16,319 bases of DNA, from assembly GCA_003353825.1 (NCBI GenBank), contig PIVW01000080.1, forward strand, positions 1 to 16,319, read 5' to 3'. Of the stretch, positions 634 through 15,853 are shown piece after piece (positions within the stretch are counted from its first letter, which is position 1; every line of letters begins with the position of its first letter). The position numbers and the translations under genes were made by a program. The notes beneath the pieces were generated by a model. It worked only from the letters and a program-made list of their open reading frames with translations, was not told the DNA's origin and ran no database searches. This DNA is from Chloroflexota bacterium (lineage in GTDB: Bacteria > Chloroflexota > Anaerolineae > J102).

Positions 634-1263
634 ATGACCCTTTTCGACCGAATCACCCTACTACTCACAGGTCTGACGGCTGCTTACATCGCTTGGCGGT
701 TCTATACACGCTATAGCAAAGAAAAAGCCCTCCACGATATCTATTACATGATGGGCTTTGTCGTTTTATTGGTTTCTGGCGTACTGCTCATTTTCGGCGG
801 CTGGGGTCTCTTGGCTTCACCCTACGTATTGACTGTAGCAACGCTAGTTCCTTTGGGTATCTCAATGGGCCTAATGAACCAGTTCGTGCCTAAATATAAG
901 AAGGCTTATTCTTGGTTCGCCCTGCTGGGCTTGTTGGCCATCGCTGTCACCAGCATTGCAGACATGCCCTTTAAGTCCATCGCCGTTCCTCTCTTTCATG
1001 GCATAGCCGGCTTGATCATTTTTGGGCTGCCACTCTACCTAACCTTCGTCACAAAAACCGAACCCAAAGGCTTTGCCATGGTTGGCGTCGGTGGTCTGTT
1101 AATCGGCATCGGTGGCATAGCTCTGGCTTTCTACAAAGCAGGCAAACCGCTGTTCGGCATCTTTACTGGGGAATTCATCCTCATGATTTTGGCTCCCTTG
1201 CTATTGATTATGACTTTGGCCTTCACTTGGGGCTTTATAAAAGACATCAACAAAAATAATTAG
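634..1263 (+). CDS. Seven-TM membrane protein of unknown function (paralogue A)
   Basis: This 209-residue protein is almost entirely hydrophobic, with about seven predicted membrane segments (roughly residues 7-22, 39-57, 63-83, 92-108, 116-138, 147-167 and 179-200) and a short basic tail ending in NKNN. A strong GGAGGAGA ribosome binding site sits about 8 bases before the ATG. I do not recognise a named family. It is clearly paralogous to the protein at 5064-5669: both start with DRI-x-LLLTGL-x-AAY and share an L-x-SP turn, an HG-(I/V)-AG-x(2)-IF-x-LP segment and a GFA-(M/L)-VGVGG-x-LIG-(I/V)-GG motif followed by LAF-x-KAGK. The glycine-rich motif (about residues 145-160) is the most conserved part and may pack helices. 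It opens the heme-copper-oxidase-like cluster, but the 324-base gap to the next gene makes co-transcription uncertain. No catalytic residue stands out. Confidence 0.8.
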   Translation: MTLFDRITLLLTGLTAAYIAWRFYTRYSKEKALHDIYYMMGFVVLLVSGVLLIFGGWGLLASPYVLTVATLVPLGISMGLMNQFVPKYKKAYSWFALLGLLAIAVTSIADMPFKSIAVPLFHGIAGLIIFGLPLYLTFVTKTEPKGFAMVGVGGLLIGIGGIALAFYKAGKPLFGIFTGEFILMILAPLLLIMTLAFTWGFIKDINKNN

Positions 1264-1587
1264 CCCCCTCTCAGGATTTCCAAATGCTGGCTTTATCGCA
1301 AAGATATTGGCAGTCTTCGAGCGCGTAACTACTCAGTTCTTCCGTCGAGGTCGATTTTCGCTACCCCAGAAATCAGTTGCTGGTAAAAATTGTCTGCCGG
1401 AATTTCTATTTGACAATTACAATCAGCCCATTTTGAGATATCCTAAAAGATAGGAATCCCGGTGGGCTGATTTCGTTGTCGTCGACAAGTCACCCATTGT
1501 TTTTGATTGGCTGTATAGCAGAATAACGCTCTGCCCCTGCCAACGTCCTCCTCAATCCAAAAATTAAATTTACGTCGGAGCCATTCT
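1264..1587. other. Intergenic stretch, 324 bases
   Basis: No credible ORF on either strand. Its one clear structure is the long stem-loop at 1412-1480. A TTGACA hexamer at 1410-1415 overlaps the left arm, but no good -10 box lies at the right distance. The GGAG ribosome binding site of the next gene is about 8 bases before its ATG at 1588. Confidence 0.6.
1412..1480. repeat. Long imperfect stem-loop upstream of the oxidase-like gene
   Basis: A perfect 10-bp stem joins AATCAGCCCA (1421-1430) to TGGGCTGATT (1463-1472). An outer 5-bp stem joins GACAA (1412-1416) to TTGTC (1476-1480) across a small internal loop. The apical part can pair further (CCTA at 1442-1445 with TAGG at 1451-1454). No run of T follows on the plus strand, so it is not a typical intrinsic terminator. 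It may be a 5' leader structure of the 1588 gene or a palindromic dispersed repeat. Confidence 0.6.
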
Positions 1588-3129
1588 ATGCAAGCATTAA
1601 CAACGCGTTTGAACTACCTCTTCCGCTCCACCAGAGGTCTGGCGCTGGTCGCCATCGCCGTAGTCGCTCTGGTAACGGCTGTTTGGGGTACGCTTTCCGG
1701 CCCGATGGTCGAATGGGGCGTGCGCGATATCACCGTCAAGGTGTTGGGGATGGATCTGGTGCAAGCTGACCGTGAAGGACGCATCATCATGCTCTATCAC
1801 ACCATCGCCATGACCGTCATCGCCATCGAGGTCTACTTTATGACCGAGATCCTGCCCATGAAACGCCATGAGCAGGTTTTCATCAACGCCACCATCACCG
1901 TCGGCTATCTCACAGCGATCATCTTCGGCCTGTTCTTTGGCTATTTCGGACATAACTTCGCCTACCATGGTCTCTTCCTGGTTGGACAGTCGCTGGTGTT
2001 TTTCTCTGGCATATTGTTAGCCGTCGCGCTTTGGCCCTGGCGCAAAGAGTACCGCTTAGCCCCGGACTCGCCCTACGCCCACACCAGGAACGGCATCGAT
2101 CTAGAGCGTGCGGCCTTTTTCGTCATGGTCATCATGACACTCACTTCCGCCACCTGGGGCGCTGTCGCCGGCTCCTTCTGGGCCAACGGACACGAGACCT
2201 TTCTGGCTGAAGATCTCATTCGCATCCCAAACAAAACGGCGCTACAGAAAGCGATCATCGGCCACTTACACATTATGCTGACCCTGGTCGCCGTGGGGAT
2301 TACCTTGATTGTGGGCAAGTGGATGGACTTCCAAGGCAAACTTCATAAAATCGCTATGCCTCTGATGATTTTCGGCTCCATTGTGACCACGTTTGGAGCC
2401 TTGTCTATTGTCTGGTTGCCTTGGGGGCACACCACCATCTACTTCGGCTCAACGATGATCATGCTCGCCGCTCTATTCTACGTTATTTTCTCGTGGAACA
2501 AGCTGATCAAGGATCGCATCGCCGAGCAGGGCATCGAAAAACCGACATTCTTACAGAAAATTGCCGCACTGCTGCATGACCCGCTCAAATTTGGCACCGG
2601 CTGGCAGATGGTCTTCATGAACTTCACCGTCAGCGGGGTTGGTATTTTTATGGCCGTCAAACTGACGGAGATCTTCCGTGTATGGCCACACCGCGAAGAA
2701 CGCATCACCCTGACCGGACACTGGCATATTCTAGCCGCGCTCATTGCAACGATTATTCTTCTTTACTACGGAGATCTCTCTGGTCTCAAAGATAAAACTC
2801 GCAAATGGTATGGTTGGTTCATTATCATCGGCTCTAACATCGCCTTTGCCTCCGCCACAATCTTTTCGATGAAACGGCTCTTTGTCACAGAATACGAGCA
2901 GCAACCCTTGGTCAACGTCCTTATGCTGCAGATGGACGCGGGTCTGGCCGGACTCCTAATCCTATTGGCCATTTTCATGGGATGGCGATTAATCGATCTG
3001 TTTAGGAAAAACGGCGTCTGGAGCAAAGAATTTGCTGCGGAAAAGAGATCTAACGCAGAAGTCGATCTGGTAGAACAAAAACGCAAAATGGAAGAACTTC
3101 AGGCAACTCTGGATGAGGTGTCCAAATGA
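1588..3129 (+). CDS. Heme-copper oxidase superfamily subunit I-like protein (cbb3/NOR-like, divergent)
   Basis: This 513-residue integral membrane protein has about 12 predicted TM helices (near residues 17-38, 68-89, 101-121, 128-150, 175-196, 222-244, 255-277, 282-303, 340-360, 377-396, 407-428 and 445-468) and a charged, coiled-coil-prone C-terminus (480-513). Twelve helices with His in TM2 (H71) and an H-x-H in TM10 (H378, H380) match the heme ligands of heme-copper oxidase subunit I and NorB: low-spin heme between TM2 and TM10, high-spin heme on the other TM10 His. The CuB/FeB site is not canonical. TM6 carries H226-L-H228 instead of H-x3-Y or H-x3-E, and TM7 lacks the HH pair, with only H253 before it and H281 after it. 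An internal repeat is visible (W33-G34 and W190-G191 motifs). The start has a GGAG site, and the stop overlaps the next ATG by ATGA. The nearby heme o synthase supports a heme-binding role. The substrate (O2, NO or other) cannot be told. Confidence 0.65.
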   Translation: MQALTTRLNYLFRSTRGLALVAIAVVALVTAVWGTLSGPMVEWGVRDITVKVLGMDLVQADREGRIIMLYHTIAMTVIAIEVYFMTEILPMKRHEQVFINATITVGYLTAIIFGLFFGYFGHNFAYHGLFLVGQSLVFFSGILLAVALWPWRKEYRLAPDSPYAHTRNGIDLERAAFFVMVIMTLTSATWGAVAGSFWANGHETFLAEDLIRIPNKTALQKAIIGHLHIMLTLVAVGITLIVGKWMDFQGKLHKIAMPLMIFGSIVTTFGALSIVWLPWGHTTIYFGSTMIMLAALFYVIFSWNKLIKDRIAEQGIEKPTFLQKIAALLHDPLKFGTGWQMVFMNFTVSGVGIFMAVKLTEIFRVWPHREERITLTGHWHILAALIATIILLYYGDLSGLKDKTRKWYGWFIIIGSNIAFASATIFSMKRLFVTEYEQQPLVNVLMLQMDAGLAGLLILLAIFMGWRLIDLFRKNGVWSKEFAAEKRSNAEVDLVEQKRKMEELQATLDEVSK

Positions 3130-4079
3130 AACGCATTATCTTCAGCCTGCTCTTGACTGGCTTGCTTGCAAGCGCCTGTGCGCCATCATCCGACGTGGGT
3201 GCGATCACCCCGCCAGCTATTGACTCCGGTGTAGACCCCACTGCCTGGACAACAATCCCTGCCGGTGAATTCCCCTCTGGTCAGATGGACCACATAACCG
3301 CGGTGGATGAGTATCAGATCATGATCACAGATGTCACTGTCGAGCAATACGCAAACTTCCTGAACGATGCCCTGGCATCTGGCGATGTCAGTGTTGGTGA
3401 ATTTGAGGTCGAAGCCGGAGAGCTTATCTGGCACGAGGACGGAGCCGGTGGCTACTATGGTGGCGATCCCTTCGATGGCTATAAGCACGAAGAAGAGATA
3501 AAAGCGGGTGATCACCTCTACGCACCACTGGCAGAGGACAAAGGCACCCGTTTGACCTACGATGGACAAACCTTCGCCGCCATGGAGTCGTACGCCAACC
3601 ATCCCATGAACATGGTGACCTGGTTTGGCGCCAACGCTTATTGCGAATACTACGACACACGCCTGCCAATCGAGATAGAATGGGAAAAAGCAGCACGTGG
3701 GACCGAAATAGTGGACGGACACGGTCTCCCCTTCCCCTGGGGTAAGGAGATTGAAGCCAACAATGCCAATTACTACTCGTCTTTTGATCTCTTCGAGAAG
3801 ATATATGGCAAGTTGGGCAACACCACACCTGTTGGTTTCTACAATGGCCAAACCTACGACGGCTATGAAACTCTTGATTCCGTCAGTCCCTACGGCCTCT
3901 ATGACATGGCCGGTAACGTGTGGCAATGGCTGGGTGATGACCTCCCCGACCAACACTATCGCCACATGCGTGGCGGCAGTTTCTATTCCTACGAAGTCGA
4001 CTTGCGTGTTTGGAAATATAACAGCGCTGGCCCACAACACTACGACCCGTCGATAGGGTTCCGGTGTGCAAAAGACTAG
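3126..4079 (+). CDS. SUMF1/FGE-fold lipoprotein (formylglycine-generating-enzyme-like domain)
   Basis: This 317-residue protein has a lipoprotein signal peptide with lipobox L-A-S-A-C18, so it should be lipid-anchored outside the membrane. The rest matches the SUMF1/FGE-sulfatase fold: an early I-P-A-G-E-F, a V-T-V-E-Q-Y-A-N-F-L helix, P-M-N-M-V-T-W-F-G-A-N-A-Y-C, R-L-P-I-E-I-E-W-E-K-A-A-R-G, Y-G-L-Y-D-M-A-G-N-V-W-Q-W and R-G-G-S-F near the end, closing with G-F-R-C. The segment after RGGSF lacks the pair of catalytic cysteines of true formylglycine-generating enzymes, so this is probably not an FGE. Domains of this fold also serve as non-heme-iron enzymes or structural and binding modules. 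Its ATG overlaps the stop of the oxidase-like gene (ATGA), implying translational coupling and perhaps a shared complex. An extracytoplasmic partner subunit is the simplest inference. Confidence 0.8.
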   Translation: MKRIIFSLLLTGLLASACAPSSDVGAITPPAIDSGVDPTAWTTIPAGEFPSGQMDHITAVDEYQIMITDVTVEQYANFLNDALASGDVSVGEFEVEAGELIWHEDGAGGYYGGDPFDGYKHEEEIKAGDHLYAPLAEDKGTRLTYDGQTFAAMESYANHPMNMVTWFGANAYCEYYDTRLPIEIEWEKAARGTEIVDGHGLPFPWGKEIEANNANYYSSFDLFEKIYGKLGNTTPVGFYNGQTYDGYETLDSVSPYGLYDMAGNVWQWLGDDLPDQHYRHMRGGSFYSYEVDLRVWKYNSAGPQHYDPSIGFRCAKD

Positions 4080-4163
4080 GTTGCCTTTATCCTCCCGGAG
4101 GTTCTCATCTCCACTCTCATGTGAACCAAGGACCGATCTCCAACATCGGTGCGGGATAACATT

Positions 4164-5027
4164 ATGACAAGTTTCAAAACTAAACTCCGCTTGTATTGGC
4201 CGCTTATCAAGAGCTTACAGACTGCATTGCTCCTCACTACCGGATTGGCCGGGTTTATGAGTACGCGCTGCCCAATCTTGAATTGGCAAATAGTGCTGGC
4301 TGTAACCGGTAGCCTGTTCCTGGCCATTAGCGGCAGCACAGTCTTGAACATGTGGTCTGATCGGGATATTGACGCAAAAATGGAGCGGACAAAAAACCGT
4401 CCATTACCATCAGGCAAAATCCCTCCCCGCGAGGCGCTCATCCTCGGTCTGGTTTTGGCCTTGCTAGGCGTCAGTTGGGCAGTTGCACTCGATCCACTCT
4501 ACGGCCTCATCGTCTTCGCCGGTCTGTTCTTCGATGTCGTCATTTACACTATGTGGCTCAAAAGGCGCACCCCCTGGGGTATCGTCTGGGGTGGTATCGC
4601 TGGCGGTATGCCCGTGTTGGCCGGGCGCGCTTTGGGAACGGGGCAAATCGAATGGATAGGCATTCTATTGGCTCTGGCTGTCCTTTTCTGGATCCCCACC
4701 CATATCCTCACCTTCAGCATGCGTTATCATGATGATTACCAGCGCGCTGGTATCCCTACCTTTCCCTCCGCTTACGGGGATCGCGTCACCCAGATCGTTA
4801 TAGCTATTTCCAGCGTGATTGCAGCCATCATGATGATCATCGCTGCATATGGGATTGGTCTCACTTTTGGTTATTTGCGACTCATGGCCGTGCTGTCCTT
4901 TGGTATGTTGCTTCTGGCCATCGTCAGCGCAACCACACCTTCCGAGCGCACTAATTTCGGCCTGTTCAAATACGCATCAGTATACATGCTCAGCGCCATG
5001 GGACTGCTGATGTTGGTTGCCGGATAA
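4164..5027 (+). CDS. ctaB: Protoheme IX farnesyltransferase (heme o synthase)
   Basis: This is a UbiA-superfamily prenyltransferase that adds a farnesyl group to heme b to make heme o. The first Asp-rich motif fits CtaB/CyoE closely: N-x3-D-x3-D-x2-M-x-R-T followed by R-P-L (starting near residue 62 when counted from this ATG). The loop Y-T-x-W-L-K-R-R-T-P and G-G-I-A-G-G-M-P is also typical, as is the second motif P-T-H then H-D-D-Y-x-R-A-G-I-P. About eight or nine TM helices are present. An in-frame GTG at 4149 would add five residues; I prefer ATG 4164 because a GCGGGA stretch lies just upstream, but this is not decisive. It lies 84 bases after the lipoprotein gene in the same direction. 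The placement suggests that the oxidase-like protein uses heme o (or heme a, though no heme A synthase is seen here). Confidence 0.9.
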   Translation: MTSFKTKLRLYWPLIKSLQTALLLTTGLAGFMSTRCPILNWQIVLAVTGSLFLAISGSTVLNMWSDRDIDAKMERTKNRPLPSGKIPPREALILGLVLALLGVSWAVALDPLYGLIVFAGLFFDVVIYTMWLKRRTPWGIVWGGIAGGMPVLAGRALGTGQIEWIGILLALAVLFWIPTHILTFSMRYHDDYQRAGIPTFPSAYGDRVTQIVIAISSVIAAIMMIIAAYGIGLTFGYLRLMAVLSFGMLLLAIVSATTPSERTNFGLFKYASVYMLSAMGLLMLVAG

Positions 5028-5063
5028 TGAGGGTAATTGTCACCTAGCTGAGGGACTTAAACC

Positions 5064-5669
5064 ATGAAGAAAATATCTGTTCTTGACCGAATTCTTCTTC
5101 TTCTAACCGGGCTGCTTGCCGCCTATCAAATTGTCGTTGGCATCGATGAGGCTGCAAAGCTCTCCGTGTTCGCCTACACCATTGCCTTCGGCACCCTGCT
5201 GGTGGCCAGTTTGTTGCTTATCATCATGGGATTTGAAGTCTTGGATAGTCCGTTGGTCGTCATCGTCTCGACTATCATTCCCCTCAGCCTCTCCCTGGGG
5301 TTGGTCTCGGAATACCTGCCCGAATTCACGACGCTCTACATGATCTTTATTGTTGTAGGATTCTTGGCGGTTGTTGTCACTCGCTACACCAAACCTGGCG
5401 AAATTGCCACTATCGTTCTTGCCACAGTGCATGGCGTTGCCGGAATGTTGATCTTCCTGCTTCCCATCATCCTTGTTCTGAGGGGCGAAATGTCTGGAGG
5501 ATTCGCTTTGGTCGGAGTAGGCGGCGCCCTCATCGGAGTAGGGGGATTGCTGCTTGCATTTCTCAAGGCAGGAAAATCGATTCTACCTCAAAAGACCATC
5601 CTGACCGTTTTTCCAGCCCTATTGCTGCTGATGACAGCGGCTTTTGTGGCAGGTTTCTCTTTTAGTTAG
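5064..5669 (+). CDS. Seven-TM membrane protein of unknown function (paralogue B)
   Basis: This 201-residue hydrophobic protein with about seven TM segments is homologous along its length to the protein at 634-1263. Shared blocks are L-D-R-I-L-L-L-L-T-G-L at the start, an L-D-S-P turn near residue 60, H-G-V-A-G-M-L-I-F-L-L-P, and the G-F-A-L-V-G-V-G-G to L-A-F-L-K-A-G-K block. It ends F-S-F-S without the basic tail of paralogue A. The start lies 36 bases after the heme o synthase stop, with an AGGGA site about 9 bases upstream. No named family is recognised. The position of the two paralogues at both ends of the oxidase cluster hints at a role in that membrane system, for example as an accessory or assembly factor, but no residue proves it. 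Confidence 0.8.
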   Translation: MKKISVLDRILLLLTGLLAAYQIVVGIDEAAKLSVFAYTIAFGTLLVASLLLIIMGFEVLDSPLVVIVSTIIPLSLSLGLVSEYLPEFTTLYMIFIVVGFLAVVVTRYTKPGEIATIVLATVHGVAGMLIFLLPIILVLRGEMSGGFALVGVGGALIGVGGLLLAFLKAGKSILPQKTILTVFPALLLLMTAAFVAGFSFS

Positions 5670-6301: not shown

Positions 6302-9300
6302 ATGAAGCCAATTAACCATACCTTACGGTTAACCATTGCCCTAAGTGTTGTATTCGTAGTCATGGTTGTAGCCGGTGGATTCGCCGCTATTAGTGCGACT
6401 GACGTCCCCTCTACAATAGAATCTATTCCTGGATATGAAAAAGGTGGACCTGATTATGGACCGCTAAGCCTGCCTGCGGGCGATGCTACCCGCTTCCGTG
6501 GCTATATCCGCATGGGCAGCCTCGACGATCCTGGTCAAGGTATTGCCGGTATTACCGTGCACTGTTACGGCCGCAATGAGGGTGAATCACGTCCGGGCCA
6601 TCTTATTCAAACCCGCGTTAGCGACGGCTCGGGTTTCTTCAACCTGTACATCCTGCCGGACCCCCGGTGGACCTATGATTATTATCTACTGATGGTCGAT
6701 ACCCCGTTGGGGCTCGTTCCCACAGGCGCCTGGAGCGAATCCGGCGTTGTCCTCGATGGCACGCACATCGAATGGCGCGATCCGGGTGGTCCGCATGATT
6801 ACATTCACCTGAATGAGATCCGTTTCGACGAACCACCCACCAGCGCTGAGCTGACTATCCTTCACACCAATGACTTCCACGGCAATCTCGAGACTGACTA
6901 CAAGGGCCGCGGCGGCTCAGCCTTCATGGCCACTGTGATCGGCGAGGTACGGGATGAAGTTGGCGGCAACAATGTGATCCTGGCGGACGCGGGGGACGTA
7001 TACCTGGGCGCTCCACCCATATCCCAGCTTGTCGAAGGCGAAAGCACTATCGCCATCTACAACATGCTGGGCTACGATGTTGCCAGCTTCGGCAACCACT
7101 CATTTGATAAGGGACAGGAAGTGATCCAGGCTCGCGTAGAGCAGTCCGATTTCCCCTGGCTGGGCGCCAATATCGTGCTCGAGGGCAGTGAATGGGATAT
7201 CCCCGCCTGGGCCAAGCCTTATGTCATCTTGGAGAAAGGTGGCGTGAAGGTAGGCGTCATCGGTTTGGATACAGACGAAACCCCGGAAGTTACACTGAAA
7301 GGCACGACCGCTGGCCTGGTCTTCAAAGATCTCACCGAGACGATCTTGCACTACTACGACGAGGTCAAGGCTCAATCCGACGCCATGATCATTCTGGTGC
7401 ATATGGGCACAGATGATAGCGGACCCTACAAGGGTATGCAGACCATTGCCCAGGCACTGATCGATGCCGGCAAGCCGGTGGACTTGATGATCGGAGGGCA
7501 TCAGCACCAAGCTCTCTCTGAACCCGTCATGGTCGGGGACACGGCTATCATCCAAGCCGGCTATTATGGCCGCTGGCTGGGCCGGGCCGACATCACGGTT
7601 GACGTGGCTAGCAAGTCTCTGACCCTCAACAACTATGAGTTGATAACGATCAATAACGAACTTCCAGAGGACCCGGATGTAGCGGCAGTTATCGAAACCT
7701 GGGCCGAAGCTATCGCTCCCATCGTCGAGCAACCGGTTGGCGTTACCAATGTCGATCTCATACGTAACTACAACCGTGAATCTAACATGGGCAACCTGGT
7801 AACCGATAGTATGTTGTGGAAGGCGGACCAGTACGACGACGACGAAGTCAACGGATCGGTGGATATCGCCTTCACCAACCCTGGCGGCCTACGCGCCGAC
7901 ATAGAAATCCCCGAGGGCTCAGATTTGCCCCATACCATGATCTGGGGTGATACCTTCAACGTACTGCCCTTTGCCAACACGCTCTTCCTGATGGACCTGA
8001 CGGGCGCCCAGATCCAGAACTTACTGGACCAGGCAGCCAGCCTGTACAAAGGCATCTTACAGACCTCCGGTGCCAGTTGGTACTGGTACAACGACTGTGA
8101 CTGTGATACTCCCACGAGTTGGGAAGCCTACAATGTCATGGTTGATGGGGAACCACTGAACCCTGAAATGACCTACCGGGTCGTAACCAATAACTTCCTG
8201 GCTGGTGGTCAGGATGGATGGGTAACCTTTGCCGATGGCACTAACCGCTGGGATACCTATTACGATATGCAGGTGGGCGCCAACGAATACATCCAGATGT
8301 ACAACGACACCGTTGGACCTATCGACACTGAGGTCGAAGGGCGCATCACCAAGGTCGATAAAGTGATCACCATCCTGCACACTAACGACACCCATGGCCG
8401 CTGGCCTGCCGACTCTTATTACGGAGATCCCCAAGGCATGGTCTACATGGCATCGCACATCGCTGAGGAGAGGGCCAAAAACCCGAATACCATTTTGCTA
8501 GATGATGGCGACACCTTCCAGGGGAACGCCTTCGCTCAGTACTTCAGAAATGCAACCCCCAATCCCATCGCCGGCGGTATGAATTTACTGGAGTACGATG
8601 CCATGACGCTCGGCAACCATGAGTTCAACTTTGGGGCAGAGACCTTTGCCACCATGTTAGGCCAGGTTGACTTCCCAATTCTGGGAGGCGCCAACCTGGA
8701 TGACGATGGCAGCTATGGCTTCATCAACGACAATGTCCAAGATTACATCACGTTGAACGTCGGTGATGTGGATGTTTCGATCTTCGGCCTGACCAATCCG
8801 GAGGTGCCGCTCTACGAACTGCCAAGCAACATTCAGGGTCTGACCTTCTATCCGGCCGTCGACACGGCCGCGGCCCTGGTACCGCAGATTCAGGCCTCCG
8901 AGGATCCTGATGTAATGATCGCGCTCAACCACATCGGCTACGATGTCTACAAAGACAGCACAGATAAGGATAAGTTCATCGCCGAGCAGGTTCCAGGCAT
9001 AGATGTGATCATTGGCGGACACAGTCATACCAAGCTCGCCCCGGCTGTCATAATCAGCTCCGACCTCAACCCCAACGGGACGTTGATCGCCCAGACAAGA
9101 GCTTACGCACAGTACCTGGGGAAGGTCAACGTCGGCCTGATCGCCGATGGGGCCGACGGATATGATGTCGTGTTCCGGGAAGGGTTCTTGCTCGACGCCG
9201 CTGACGTGGACGCAGATCCAACAGTGACAGAGTATCTAGTGCCCTTCAGTGACGAGTTGGCTAACTACACCGGCACGGAAATCGGACAGACCACGGAACC

Positions 9301-9958
9301 CATCGATGCGCTGGAGGCTTATACGGAAGAAACCAGCGGCGCCAACCTACAGGCTGATTCGGCAGTCTTTGAGCTTGAAACGAATGGCATCGAAGTGGAC
9401 TTCCACCTCTCCGGCGCCATGAGCAACAGAAAGGTGGCGGATGACGCAACGGCAGAGAATCCTGTGACGCTGACAGTAGACGATATGTACACGCTCATGC
9501 CCTACGAGAACTCGCTACTAGTCATGGAGATGAACGGTCCCCAGATCAAGGAGGTGCTCGAGCGAGGGTACCGCAACTACTGGTACTACAAGTACTCGGA
9601 AGACTACGGTGGTTATTCGCATTACACGACCTGCATGCTCGACATCAGCGCCGGCGGCGTGATTACCTACAACGATGCCCATCCTGAAGAGCCGAATGGC
9701 AATAATGTGGTGTCGTTGGTCTCTGACGGCCAGTCTGTCGACTTCGAAGACGCCGACACCTACTACAATGTCTCCAGCGTCAACTACCTGGCGGCAGGGT
9801 CCTGCAACTTTAATAACGATGGTGAGACCTTATGGCCGCTGGATCAGATCGTGGCCGATACGCAATTCTATGTGCGCGATGCAGTCATCGACTACATCAC
9901 GGCGATGGGCACCATCTCACCGCAGGTTGAAGGCCGGCTTGTATTTTCCACCCCCTAG
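6302..9958 (+). CDS. Exported tandem 5'-nucleotidase/metallophosphatase (two UshA-like modules)
   Basis: This 1218-residue protein starts with a signal peptide or anchor (about 1-32), then a beta-rich region (about 60-175) with G-Y-I-R and G-I-T-V, resembling SdrD/CNA-B-type domains. Two complete 5'-nucleotidase modules follow. Module 1 has H-T-N-D191-F-H193-G, G-N265-H266-S, an H-M-G segment and G-G-H400-Q-H402, then a C-terminal substrate domain with N-P-G-G-L-R and V-L-P-F-A-N. Module 2 has H-T-N-D696-T-H698-G, G-N772-H773-E, an N-H-I-G segment and G-G-H907-S-H909, then a diverged substrate domain (S-G-A-M-S-N-R in place of the usual N-G-G-x-R) and L-M-P-Y-E-N. The family hydrolyses 5'-nucleotides, UDP-sugars, NAD or cyclic nucleotides outside the membrane using two metal ions. 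There is no C-terminal anchor motif (it ends in V-F-S-T-P). The length fits a duplication of a single-module enzyme of about 550 residues. The upstream AAAGGAGG supports the start. Confidence 0.92.
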   Translation: MKPINHTLRLTIALSVVFVVMVVAGGFAAISATDVPSTIESIPGYEKGGPDYGPLSLPAGDATRFRGYIRMGSLDDPGQGIAGITVHCYGRNEGESRPGHLIQTRVSDGSGFFNLYILPDPRWTYDYYLLMVDTPLGLVPTGAWSESGVVLDGTHIEWRDPGGPHDYIHLNEIRFDEPPTSAELTILHTNDFHGNLETDYKGRGGSAFMATVIGEVRDEVGGNNVILADAGDVYLGAPPISQLVEGESTIAIYNMLGYDVASFGNHSFDKGQEVIQARVEQSDFPWLGANIVLEGSEWDIPAWAKPYVILEKGGVKVGVIGLDTDETPEVTLKGTTAGLVFKDLTETILHYYDEVKAQSDAMIILVHMGTDDSGPYKGMQTIAQALIDAGKPVDLMIGGHQHQALSEPVMVGDTAIIQAGYYGRWLGRADITVDVASKSLTLNNYELITINNELPEDPDVAAVIETWAEAIAPIVEQPVGVTNVDLIRNYNRESNMGNLVTDSMLWKADQYDDDEVNGSVDIAFTNPGGLRADIEIPEGSDLPHTMIWGDTFNVLPFANTLFLMDLTGAQIQNLLDQAASLYKGILQTSGASWYWYNDCDCDTPTSWEAYNVMVDGEPLNPEMTYRVVTNNFLAGGQDGWVTFADGTNRWDTYYDMQVGANEYIQMYNDTVGPIDTEVEGRITKVDKVITILHTNDTHGRWPADSYYGDPQGMVYMASHIAEERAKNPNTILLDDGDTFQGNAFAQYFRNATPNPIAGGMNLLEYDAMTLGNHEFNFGAETFATMLGQVDFPILGGANLDDDGSYGFINDNVQDYITLNVGDVDVSIFGLTNPEVPLYELPSNIQGLTFYPAVDTAAALVPQIQASEDPDVMIALNHIGYDVYKDSTDKDKFIAEQVPGIDVIIGGHSHTKLAPAVIISSDLNPNGTLIAQTRAYAQYLGKVNVGLIADGADGYDVVFREGFLLDAADVDADPTVTEYLVPFSDELANYTGTEIGQTTEPIDALEAYTEETSGANLQADSAVFELETNGIEVDFHLSGAMSNRKVADDATAENPVTLTVDDMYTLMPYENSLLVMEMNGPQIKEVLERGYRNYWYYKYSEDYGGYSHYTTCMLDISAGGVITYNDAHPEEPNGNNVVSLVSDGQSVDFEDADTYYNVSSVNYLAAGSCNFNNDGETLWPLDQIVADTQFYVRDAVIDYITAMGTISPQVEGRLVFSTP

Positions 9959-13876: not shown

Positions 13877-14362
13877 TCACGCATGTTTCTTATCCCAATG
13901 AGACTCGAAATTCTCAATTCGTTTGCGGATGTAACCGGCATAAGGATCTGCTTTGTCTCGTTTCTCTTTGACAACCTTCATAGCAGCTTCGGCAGTATAC
14001 CCCTTGGCGACGAGAATGCAACAAGCCATGGCCACACTACGATGCACCCCTGCTTTGCAATGCACGAGAACGGAATGGCCTTGCTCATCGATAACTGGTA
14101 ATGCCCCATGAACCCCTCGTTTTAAGATAAACTGGGGGATGGGGGTCCAGGGTGAATCAAATGAAGGACAATGGATAAATTGGAAGGGTGGCTTGCAATA
14201 AACGTTAGGCGGTTTATTAACAGGCATCGAAATGACAAGACGAATTCCCAGAGAAAAAATATGTTCGGCATGTTCATCTTTGGGTAGAGATGACAGAAAG
14301 AGATACTCTGTAATCTGGGACAAATCGGGATGTTCTACACTGCTATGTTCTTCATCGGTCAT
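13877..14362 (-). CDS. Dual-specificity-type protein phosphatase 1
   Basis: This 161-residue cysteine-dependent phosphatase has the P-loop H-C102-K-A-G-V-H-R108-S, the HCX5R(S/T) signature of DSP/PTP enzymes. A candidate general acid is D69 in F-D-S-P-W-T-P-I-P. The N-terminal I-T-E-Y-L-F-L-S-S-L-P motif is the usual strand of small DSPs ('i...lylGs'). The protein ends in basic helices. ATG 14362 is chosen because GGTGGAG lies about 8 bases upstream; the longer frame to 14545 would add residues that translate a palindromic repeat and are unlikely to be coding. It is clearly paralogous to the enzyme at 15324-15839 (shared C-K-A-G-x-H-R-S-V-A-M, A-D-P-Y and I-R-K-R-I-E motifs). The substrate is unknown; neighbours suggest a role in controlling transport proteins. 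Confidence 0.88.
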   Translation of the reverse strand: MTDEEHSSVEHPDLSQITEYLFLSSLPKDEHAEHIFSLGIRLVISMPVNKPPNVYCKPPFQFIHCPSFDSPWTPIPQFILKRGVHGALPVIDEQGHSVLVHCKAGVHRSVAMACCILVAKGYTAEAAMKVVKEKRDKADPYAGYIRKRIENFESHWDKKHA

Positions 14363-14491
14363 ATGATTTCTCCACCGGACACTTCTATAGATGTTCAGAT
14401 AATGATTTTGACTTTTTGCCAGACTTTCCGCTGGTAAATACGCCTGCGGATTCAAAATCTTTTTCTGGAAGACTATATCAACTGTCTTTCC

Positions 14492-14529
14492 TTCGATTTC
14501 ACTCAGGACAGGTCTGAGTGGGTTTTCGA
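14492..14529. repeat. REP-like palindrome
   Basis: TTCGA (14492-14496) and TCGAA (14526-14530) flank an inner stem CACTCA (14500-14505)/TGAGTG (14515-14520) with loop GGACAGGTC. The reverse strand translates to P-V-L-S-E-I-E-G, a peptide I recall as a frequent false-ORF product of a dispersed palindromic repeat in environmental bacteria. It overlaps the end of the PRC-barrel C-terminal frame and supplies its stop. Confidence 0.6.
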
Positions 14530-14981
14530 AGCCGGCACACATCAAAAGACACGGACTTTGGTATAGTAGATAAGAGGAGCCTTATGCCGAGAGTTTGAAT
14601 GTATCTTCTCAATAACTTGGGGGAACTAGCCCGTCCACGAAGGTGGACGTTCGGCGGTACGCCCTCTGAGCCCGAATTCATTCGGCGAGTGCCCCGGATT
14701 ACTGAAGCCTTATCGATTTTCAAAAAAACGGTATCCATTTCAGCCCGTTCGATTCCGGAGACCGGAATGGTTACAGTCCATTTATCTAATAGGTTGCGCT
14801 GGCGCAAGACCGAATAACTTACGTGATGGGTTTCTGGATCGATAACAACCTCGTCTATCTTTCCCACTTGGCCATCCGTTGCAAACACTCTTGCACCTTT
14901 ATTCACCGCTAGTGGTGTTAATGAAGGCTGAGCGGGGAGCCCCAGTGTCGTTGATTCTGCCATTCGGTAAGGATGATGCAT
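14499..14981 (-). CDS. PRC-barrel domain protein, C-terminal half (frameshifted from 14899-15291)
   Basis: The frame encodes a PRC-barrel: L-A-V-N-K-G-A-R-V-F-A-T-D-G-Q-V-G-K-I-D-E-V-V, I-D-P-E-T-H-H-V-S-Y-S-V-L-R, V-T-I-P-V-S-G-I and V-F-L-K-I-D-K-A-S-V. In Chloroflexota and Cyanobacteria this domain usually follows a first one on the same chain, as the second half of an MHIP-type protein. Here the first half ends in another frame about 75 bases further on, so the two ORFs are best read as one gene broken near 14950-14985 by a frameshift (natural or sequencing error). The tail after about 14690 does not match the family. It runs over a hairpin (14632-14649) and into the REP palindrome, which ends the frame. 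ATG 14981 is probably not a real start. Confidence 0.6.
   Translation of the reverse strand: MHHPYRMAESTTLGLPAQPSLTPLAVNKGARVFATDGQVGKIDEVVIDPETHHVSYSVLRQRNLLDKWTVTIPVSGIERAEMDTVFLKIDKASVIRGTRRMNSGSEGVPPNVHLRGRASSPKLLRRYIQTLGIRLLLSTIPKSVSFDVCRLRKPTQTCPE
14632..14649. other. Perfect hairpin CGTCCAC-GAAG-GTGGACG
   Basis: A 7-bp perfect stem (14632-14638 with 14643-14649) and a GAAG tetraloop. It lies where PRC-family homology ends in the C-terminal frame. It may be part of an inserted repeat or an mRNA 3' structure. No T-run follows on the minus strand. Confidence 0.5.
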
Positions 14982-15323: not shown

Positions 15324-15839
15324 TCAAATACTGTGTTGCGTCTGCCAATATGGCTCAAACTTTTCAATCCGTTTTCTGATATGAGGTTTGTACGGATCGG
15401 CTATTTCACGGGCGTCAGCTACCATCCGCATCGCCTCAGCCGCCGAATGCCCCTGACCAATAAGAATACAGGAAGCCATGGCCACACTGCGATGGATGCC
15501 CGCTTTACAAAAGACAAGCACTTTACCACTCGCATCCAGGATGGGCAGTGCCACCTCCGCACCGTGGCGCAATTGAAACAGGGGCAAGGGCATAAAAGGG
15601 GCATCTGTCATCCGAATTTGAACCATTTTTAAAGGAGGCAGTTTCAACTCTTTGTCTTGTCTTTCCCAGAGCGTGCAAATGATGAGTTCGATGCCATAAT
15701 CCACGATTTCTGGTGCATGTTTGGCAATGGGCCAGTTGGAAACAAACAGGCCATTCGTAATCTGGGAAATGTCCAGAATATCTGTCTCCTCGGTGATGCC
15801 CTGTCTGCGATTGCGTAATTTTCGAATAATGGATGCCAT
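15324..15839 (-). CDS. Dual-specificity-type protein phosphatase 2
   Basis: This 171-residue paralogue of the enzyme at 13877-14362 has a P-loop that reads F-C111-K-A-G-I-H-R117-S, so the usual His before the catalytic Cys is replaced by Phe. The conserved Asp candidate is D79 in M-T-D-A-P-F-M-P-L-P. The N-terminus is basic (M-A-S-I-I-R-K-L-R-N-R-R), followed by I-T-N-G-L-F-V-S-N-W-P. ATG 15839 with AGGTGA upstream is preferred over the GTG at 15848. It lies 14 bases after the metallophosphoesterase stop, which suggests co-transcription. The His-to-Phe change may lower activity by altering the Cys pKa; this is an inference from PTP chemistry. Confidence 0.85.
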   Translation of the reverse strand: MASIIRKLRNRRQGITEETDILDISQITNGLFVSNWPIAKHAPEIVDYGIELIICTLWERQDKELKLPPLKMVQIRMTDAPFMPLPLFQLRHGAEVALPILDASGKVLVFCKAGIHRSVAMASCILIGQGHSAAEAMRMVADAREIADPYKPHIRKRIEKFEPYWQTQHSI

Positions 15840-15853
15840 CTTTATCACCTATG

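Follow-up and report, generated by a model that had tools for sequence, protein, structure and literature searches.

A heme-copper oxidase-like predicted fold encoded beside a SUMF1-type lipoprotein and a dedicated heme o synthase: a three-gene module in several bacterial phyla

Introduction

What does a membrane protein that matches no named family do when its gene is joined to those of a SUMF1-fold lipoprotein and a heme o synthase? The locus that raises this question lies in a 16,319-nucleotide stretch of DNA from a Chloroflexota bacterium (contig PIVW01000080.1 of assembly GCA_003353825.1), which was analyzed at its full length and is called the window here. In an initial annotation, five plus-strand genes between positions 634 and 5669 were tentatively read as a self-contained module handling O2 or nitric oxide (NO), in which the lipoprotein takes the place of subunit II beside an oxidase-like protein of 513 amino acids (aa). 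Our analysis indicates that three of the five genes form a conserved unit, that the 513-aa protein is predicted to adopt the subunit I fold of the heme-copper oxidase (HCO) superfamily, and that the unit could well encode a complex reducing NO or O2. Most respiratory reduction of O2, and a large share of NO reduction by bacteria, is carried out by the HCO superfamily, whose history enters into arguments on how aerobic respiration arose.

Three genes form the conserved unit

The 513-aa gene (positions 1588 to 3129) is followed on the plus strand by the lipoprotein gene (3126 to 4079) and by the gene for the heme o synthase CtaB (4149 to 5027, with a GTG start). All five open reading frames of the initial annotation were recovered, as was its single ATGA overlap, the 4 bases at 3126 to 3129 shared by the 513-aa and lipoprotein genes, which suggests that the two are translationally coupled. 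We retrieved 79 loci (numbered with L) using the 513-aa protein alone (the best 80 of 88 relatives); four of them end inside the 513-aa-type gene. Neighbor counts refer to 77 loci, 36 of which have 6 kb on both sides, L007 and L063 being left out since an overlapping frame had taken the place of theirs in the gene list. A SUMF1 gene lies directly next to the 513-aa-type gene in 74 of the 75 loci with at least 1 kb downstream, and in the remaining one, L071, the two are fused, which supports the proposal that the lipoprotein is the partner of the HCO-like subunit. The overlap offset of the window recurs in 54 of the 59 frame pairs that start at most 60 bases apart. CtaB is found within 4.5 kb in 67 of the 69 loci with at least 2.3 kb (on the other strand in L025 and L027); it is missing in L014 and L058, and none was seen near the L071 fusion.

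The two outer genes behave differently. Their products, of 209 aa (634 to 1263, plus strand, with one conserved histidine, H122) and 201 aa (5064 to 5669, plus strand), have seven transmembrane helices by the count of the initial annotation and are paralogous, with 42% identity over 203 columns (E = 4e-36). Homologous membrane proteins thus do bracket the module in the window; elsewhere they are optional accessories: of the loci that could be tested, 38 of 62 have a relative on the upstream side and 44 of 64 have one downstream. The complete set of five is found in only 19 of 51 loci, so the five-gene order was ruled out as the conserved unit. That unit is instead made of three genes, those for the HCO-fold protein, the SUMF1 protein and CtaB, and their order is conserved in several phyla. 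With a SUMF1 gene adjacent in 74 of 75 loci and CtaB nearby in 67 of 69, the arrangement is beyond chance. Homologs of the 513-aa protein do not have a classical subunit II as a constant neighbor.

The locus records carry the names Chloroflexota, Bacteroidota, Calditrichota, Chlorobiota, Ignavibacteria, Aminicenantes, Spirochaetales and Desulfuromusa, and three further genomes of the Desulfuromusa class have the three genes in the same order. Two loci with Spirochaetales labels, L025 and L027, fall near Chloroflexota in trees and may reflect transfer or misbinning. The distribution of the 513-aa family is patchy. In a phylum sample for Desulfuromusa, 7 of 297 genomes matched at E values up to 1, two of them strongly; the phylum samples of Anaerolineales genome G004 and Bacteroidales genome G021 gave 13 of 301 genomes with matches of any strength and 1 of 296, namely G021 itself. 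At the class level, matches of any strength were found in 5 of 277 genomes for Desulfuromusa (G989 only at its SUMF1 end) and in 61 of 396 for G528, where both subfamilies described below are present.

The 513-aa protein has a predicted heme-copper oxidase fold

Sequence searches gave the 513-aa protein no family. Its best Pfam match was to an unrelated pilin family (E = 0.074), NCBIfam returned nothing at E values up to 1, and the PDB returned nothing at E values up to 10 for the single sequence and no match for a 41-row family alignment. None of 41 family members matched the COX1 profile PF00115. Profile-profile comparison (hhalign) of the family with sets of 15 and 5 HCOs from the host genomes gave nothing significant, the local optimum falling on the HxH motif of transmembrane helix (TM) 10 in two of three comparisons, including that with the 15-HCO set; the third placed it in an unrelated stretch. 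Relatives number 3172 at E values up to 0.001 (7998 candidates scored), and among the 120 matches listed all are named 'hypothetical protein' except one 'MFS family permease', with no COX1 assignment. The protein is therefore no ordinary oxidase subunit and is beyond detection as one by sequence.

The label 'oxidase-like' in the initial annotation found its support in predicted structure instead. The model has 12 long helices in the arrangement of the HCO subunit I, and cbb3 and ba3 oxidases top its structure comparison lists. HCO entries outrank unrelated ones both for the full protein and for a fragment model of residues 66 to 385, which was made to fix the helix register and agrees with HCOs to within one helical turn. 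Since the predicted local distance difference test score (pLDDT) of the fragment lies below 50 over its last 27 residues, in TM10, the superposition supports the ligand assignment given below and does not prove it. By its modeled fold only, the protein belongs to the HCO superfamily, and to none of its named families, because the residues that define those families were sought in it and were not present.

Invariant histidines and proposed heme and metal sites

A second subfamily, represented by L134 and L135, is 33 to 39% identical to the window's 513-aa protein, with 649 matches when L134 is the query. Across 21 first-subfamily and 29 second-subfamily rows, seven histidines are invariant (50/50), as they are in a set of 55 rows made up of the window protein, 45 fused proteins and 9 further loci. 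Residues R65, E208, M230, D331, E371, R372 and R405 are likewise invariant across both subfamilies. In HCOs, conserved histidines lie in TM2, in TM6, in an HH pair at the TM7/TM8 junction and in the HxH of TM10, and with positions read from the model helices, six of the seven occupy these canonical places: H71 in TM2 (1798 to 1800), H226 and H228 in the GHLH motif of TM6 (2263 to 2265 and 2269 to 2271), H281 at the TM7/TM8 junction in place of the HH pair (2428 to 2430), and H378 and H380 of the H378-W379-H380 motif in TM10 (2719 to 2727), all on the plus strand. The seventh, H127 at the start of TM4 (1966 to 1968, plus strand), has to our knowledge no HCO counterpart.

The proposed heme ligands can be compared with those of known enzymes. 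In the fragment superposition, the residues opposite H71 are 74 in 1ehk_A, 63 in mouse COX1 (7o37_a) and 62 in 3mk7_G; those opposite H378/H380 are 386/388, 379/381 and 348/350 in these chains and 632/634 in the quinol-dependent NO reductase (qNOR) 6qq6_A, assuming no gap between the range ends and these residues. The ligands themselves we take to be H72 and H384/H386 in 1ehk_A, H61 and H376/H378 in 7o37_a, and H60 and H345/H347 in 3mk7_G. For 6qq6_A, PMC10256718 gives His629 and His631. The offset is thus 2 to 3 residues in these four structures, and 3 to 4 in 8smr_E provided that its ligands are numbered as in 3mk7, so that a TM2 histidine and a TM10 HxH are present in the 513-aa family in a register within 2 to 4 residues.

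The residues of the putative metal-B site differ from those of HCOs. One TM6 histidine and an HH pair hold metal B in HCOs; here TM6 has an HxH and H281 is single. The active-site tyrosine of O2-reducing HCOs lies four residues after the TM6 histidine in the A and B families and in TM7 in the C family. At H226+4 the 513-aa family has methionine (M230) in 50 of 50 rows, neither tyrosine nor glutamate, and at H281-6 it has valine, methionine, isoleucine or leucine, these places being taken from model helices rather than from a residue-level superposition. At H281+4, 17 of the 21 first-subfamily rows do have a tyrosine (Y285), as do 48 of the 55 in the fused-protein set; the other 4 first-subfamily rows and 28 of the 29 second-subfamily rows have asparagine there.

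The SUMF1 lipoprotein and the dedicated CtaB

The product of 3126 to 4079 matches PF03781 at 115.2 bits (cut-off 23.3) and has a lipoprotein-like N terminus, as the initial annotation had it. Its proposed lipid-anchored cysteine, Cys18 (3177 to 3179, plus strand), and C314 are the only cysteines present in at least 97% of 69 SUMF1 rows, 47 of which contain a simple lipobox pattern. The active-site cysteine pair of formylglycine-generating enzyme (FGE) is not conserved in these rows. SenA, EgtB, OvoA and GldK appear as weak matches. The L071 fusion, from Desulfuromusa, is a single frame of 786 aa, and 45 of the 120 L071 relatives listed are fused proteins of 761 to 856 aa with PF03781, from records that include Desulfocapsa, Verrucomicrobiota, Marinimicrobia and Symbiobacterium. 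A quick tree of 85 rows, 26 of them fused, was made like the CtaB trees without bootstrap; on it the fused state requires 6 to 7 changes, at least 4 to 5 of them by well supported branches. Such repeated fusion or splitting is an argument that the HCO-fold and SUMF1 products form a single working complex in which SUMF1 lies outside the membrane.

The heme o synthase was likewise borne out: the product of 4149 to 5027 matches TIGR01473 at 238 bits, above the equivalog cut-off of 210.3, and conserves the NxxxDxxxD residues N67, D71 and D75. When 31 CtaB-like frames were compared with the window's copy, 16 were 55 to 74% identical to it and 15 at most 38%, and 14 of the 16 close frames share a locus with an HCO-fold or SUMF1 protein gene. 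A quick tree was built from 32 module copies, taken as every second one, together with 15 other CtaBs; a branch with a support of 100 separates the module copies from the rest. A second run included three second-subfamily CtaBs and omitted four rows. In it, the 12 other CtaBs were separated with a support of 100 and the module alone with 74; long branches meeting were flagged in both runs. The module thus appears from these comparisons to carry its own CtaB, in a group apart from the other CtaBs of its hosts, and in 6 of 41 host genomes (numbered with G) that copy is the sole TIGR01473 match. A two-gene variant in which CtaB lies directly 3' of a second-subfamily gene occurs in L210 (6605 to 8883), L211 (6059 to 9021) and L212 (464 to 2703), where CtaB scores 211, 209 and 205 bits against the same cut-off, and no SUMF1 gene was seen there. 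Because second-subfamily genes also adjoin CtaB, the link between the 513-aa family and heme o holds in two gene settings.

Electron donors, neighbors and host genomes

As the initial annotation had noted for the window, a classical subunit II is lacking. A CuA-like motif lies within 6 kb in 2 of 77 loci (0 of the 36 with full flanks). Genes with CXXCH that are not part of the module lie in this range in 13 of 77 (5 of 36), with at least three motifs in 7 of 77. No conserved CuA or cytochrome c partner was found within 6 kb in the 77 loci, in a scan that did not take in cupredoxins without a CuA motif, as in the quinol-oxidase type, and quinol is therefore the likeliest electron donor. In L021, L036, L060, L065, L077 and L079, a pair of c-type proteins of about 290 to 370 aa with 6 and 7 CXXCH motifs is encoded near the module and is possibly the electron donor in one branch.

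Neighbor genes were grouped by single linkage into clusters named after their representatives. A Crp/Fnr-type cluster lies within 6 kb in 29 of 77 loci (17 of 36 with full flanks); for a NapH/NosR-like ferredoxin cluster the count is 14 of 77 (9 of 36). Beside the second-subfamily gene of L134 are a flavodiiron protein, which reaches 233 bits with the flavorubredoxin model and so falls short of the cut-off of 635, and a hemerythrin-DUF438-PAS protein with relatives in L202 and L206. COX1 genes lie beside second-subfamily genes in L135, L202 and L205, and in L135 and L205 a small protein that is subunit-II-like or weakly cupredoxin-like is encoded nearby. None of the flavodiiron, hemerythrin-DUF438-PAS or COX1 neighbors was seen at other second-subfamily loci such as L203, L208 and L209. 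By their predicted families, some of the module's neighbors suggest responses to redox, NO or O2 stress.

Among the 41 host genomes, 31 have a COX1-family match (oxidase or NO reductase) above cut-off and 24 a bd match, 35 having one or the other; in six, neither was found at E values up to 0.001, the genomes being drafts. An early view of the hosts as mostly anaerobic was dropped in light of the 31 with COX1-family genes. In G014, G016 and G023, the only CtaB sits in the module, and no COX1 or bd gene was found. No link to denitrification was found in the 41 genomes, NosZ being above cut-off in 6; PF02335 (NrfA) is above cut-off in 24, with E values under 1e-100 in 18, and as these NosZ and NrfA counts stand without matched background genomes, neither enrichment nor depletion is claimed.

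Several observations stand apart. Members of a cluster designated c17 (L136, 3669 to 4481; L011, 3805 to 5388; and others) carry an HSCGA-type motif domain near the module in some genomes; L011 has two copies, and the L136 member has no Pfam match. L100, from the same genome as the Calditrichaeota locus L055, encodes a very divergent COX1-like protein of 459 aa (452 to 1828; 47 bits), with a canonical COX1 gene lying some 2 kb away. Proteins of about 430 aa in L101 (712 to 2007), L102 (669 to 1952) and L105 (558 to 1856) match COX1 weakly and make up another family, a candidate remote HCO relative; the gene preceding each of them resembles DUF2249. In the window itself, positions 6302 to 9958 encode a 1218-aa protein with two stretches each of PF00149 (metallophosphatase) and PF02872 (5'-nucleotidase C-terminal), and two similar minus-strand frames (13877 to 14545 and 15324 to 15848) share the motif [HF]CKAG[VI]HRSVAMA, look like a duplicated unit and are presumably phosphatase-like, judging from the motif.

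A proposed mechanism and its alternatives

We lean toward reading the three-gene module as an HCO-superfamily complex that reduces NO or O2, with NO slightly ahead. In this complex, the 513-aa protein would be a catalytic-type subunit from a lineage that none of the known families includes, the SUMF1-fold lipoprotein its obligate partner on the outer face, and the dedicated CtaB the supplier of its heme o. A low-spin heme held between H71 and H380 would take electrons, probably from quinol, and pass them to a high-spin heme, probably heme o, on H378. Opposite this heme, H281 and the TM6 histidine H226, perhaps with H228, would hold a non-heme metal. A small diatomic would be reduced at this site, NO somewhat more likely than O2, mainly because the oxidase tyrosine is missing and several neighbors belong to NO or O2 stress responses. 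Against NO speak the use of heme o, the presence of COX1-family genes in most hosts and the failure to find a link with denitrification. What is observed in all this is the gene order, the fusions, the separate CtaB group, the predicted fold and the invariant histidines; the binding of heme and metal, the donor, the substrate and the part played by SUMF1 are inferred. More tentatively, the family may be a further primary HCO lineage beside the A, B, C and NO reductase families, NO- or O2-reducing and spread across several phyla, with an active site rebuilt from the TM6 HxH and the single TM7/TM8 histidine. Given the threefold pseudosymmetry of the HCO fold, an extra site at H127 and H228 could even place a third cofactor in a normally empty pore.

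A somewhat unlikely alternative is that the same complex reduces O2 as a protective or respiratory quinol oxidase, with Y285 or another residue replacing the cross-linked tyrosine. It would suit the accompanying heme o synthase, the cbb3 and ba3 oxidases at the top of the structural lists, the COX1 genes of most hosts and those beside some second-subfamily genes, and the presence of Y285 in most first-subfamily and fused-protein rows. Yet Y285 is asparagine in nearly all of the second subfamily, no tyrosine stands at H226+4 or H281-6, and most hosts already have a COX1-family or bd match. We think it unlikely that the protein is a non-catalytic relative, such as a sensor that binds heme o, a carrier of heme or an assembly factor, in which the fold was kept and SUMF1 is the output or docking domain. 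An incomplete HH/Tyr/Glu active-site set, the lack of a conserved electron-transfer subunit and the frequent Crp/Fnr regulators fit such a role, and COX1 genes beside some second-subfamily members would suit a helper; however, the invariance of seven histidines and seven other residues across diverged subfamilies suggests that chemistry was retained, and in G014, G016 and G023, where the only CtaB is that of the module, no COX1 or bd gene was detected.

That the protein is an HCO-fold enzyme acting on another substrate or in another direction, as in oxidative maturation of the SUMF1 partner or of an exported protein, appears improbable. SUMF1-fold proteins are often enzymes acting on cysteine or histidine compounds, as the weak SenA, EgtB and OvoA matches recall, and the pairing is strict, with repeated fusion or splitting, but the module's SUMF1 protein conserves only C18 and C314 instead of an active-site cysteine pair, and no target gene was identified. 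Least probable of all is that the protein is a 12-TM transporter with no relation to HCOs and a model that resembles them by chance. The lack of sequence similarity and the single MFS name would agree with it, whereas two models rank HCO entries above unrelated ones, six invariant histidines lie at canonical places and heme o synthase is linked in both gene settings. Surveys of NO reductases that use profiles of known families, PMC10359470 being one, would be expected to miss the 513-aa family. Should NO or O2 turn out to be its substrate, surveys of this kind are incomplete; should its role be a different one, the HCO fold gains a new function.

Comparison with known systems

In a literature search of titles and the first parts of abstracts, covering no preprints and few subscription journals, we found no paper on the 513-aa family or its SUMF1 pairing, and an earlier description is possible. 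The closest named systems differ at defining residues. CcoN of cbb3 oxidases (C family) is 7 to 10% identical to the 513-aa protein, which has a single histidine for the HH pair, no conserved cytochrome c subunit and a SUMF1 partner, and no tyrosine where we take that of CcoN to lie, six residues before HH. The ba3, aa3 and bo3 oxidases (A and B families) share their fold with the 513-aa model, and bo3 oxidase also uses heme o synthase, but they have HxxxY in TM6, whereas the 513-aa family has methionine at H226+4, no conserved subunit II and no COX1 profile match. Operons of O2-reducing HCOs include a CuA subunit II or cytochrome c subunits, which the module loci do not conserve. The cytochrome c-dependent (cNOR) and quinol-dependent NO reductases have glutamate at the TM6 histidine +4 in place of Met230, and Pfam reported no NorC or fused NorC-like domain in the 513-aa protein. 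From these enzymes and from the proposed eNOR, bNOR, sNOR, gNOR and nNOR, the module also differs in having heme o synthase in its operon. PMC8756737 describes a cupredoxin subunit II for eNOR, which annotation mistakes for cytochrome c oxidase.

The two partners belong to known families. The module lipoprotein shares the PF03781 domain with the SUMF1/FGE superfamily (FGE, EgtB, GldK/GldJ, PvdO and SenA), and its lipoprotein form with the weakly matching GldK, yet it pairs or fuses with an HCO-fold protein and lacks a conserved catalytic cysteine pair. The module CtaB passes the TIGR01473 cut-off and has the NxxxDxxxD motif of CtaB/CyoE, yet forms a separate group. The fold and the three kinds of protein are already known; the HCO-fold lineage, its ligand set and its pairing with SUMF1 are what the literature search did not turn up.

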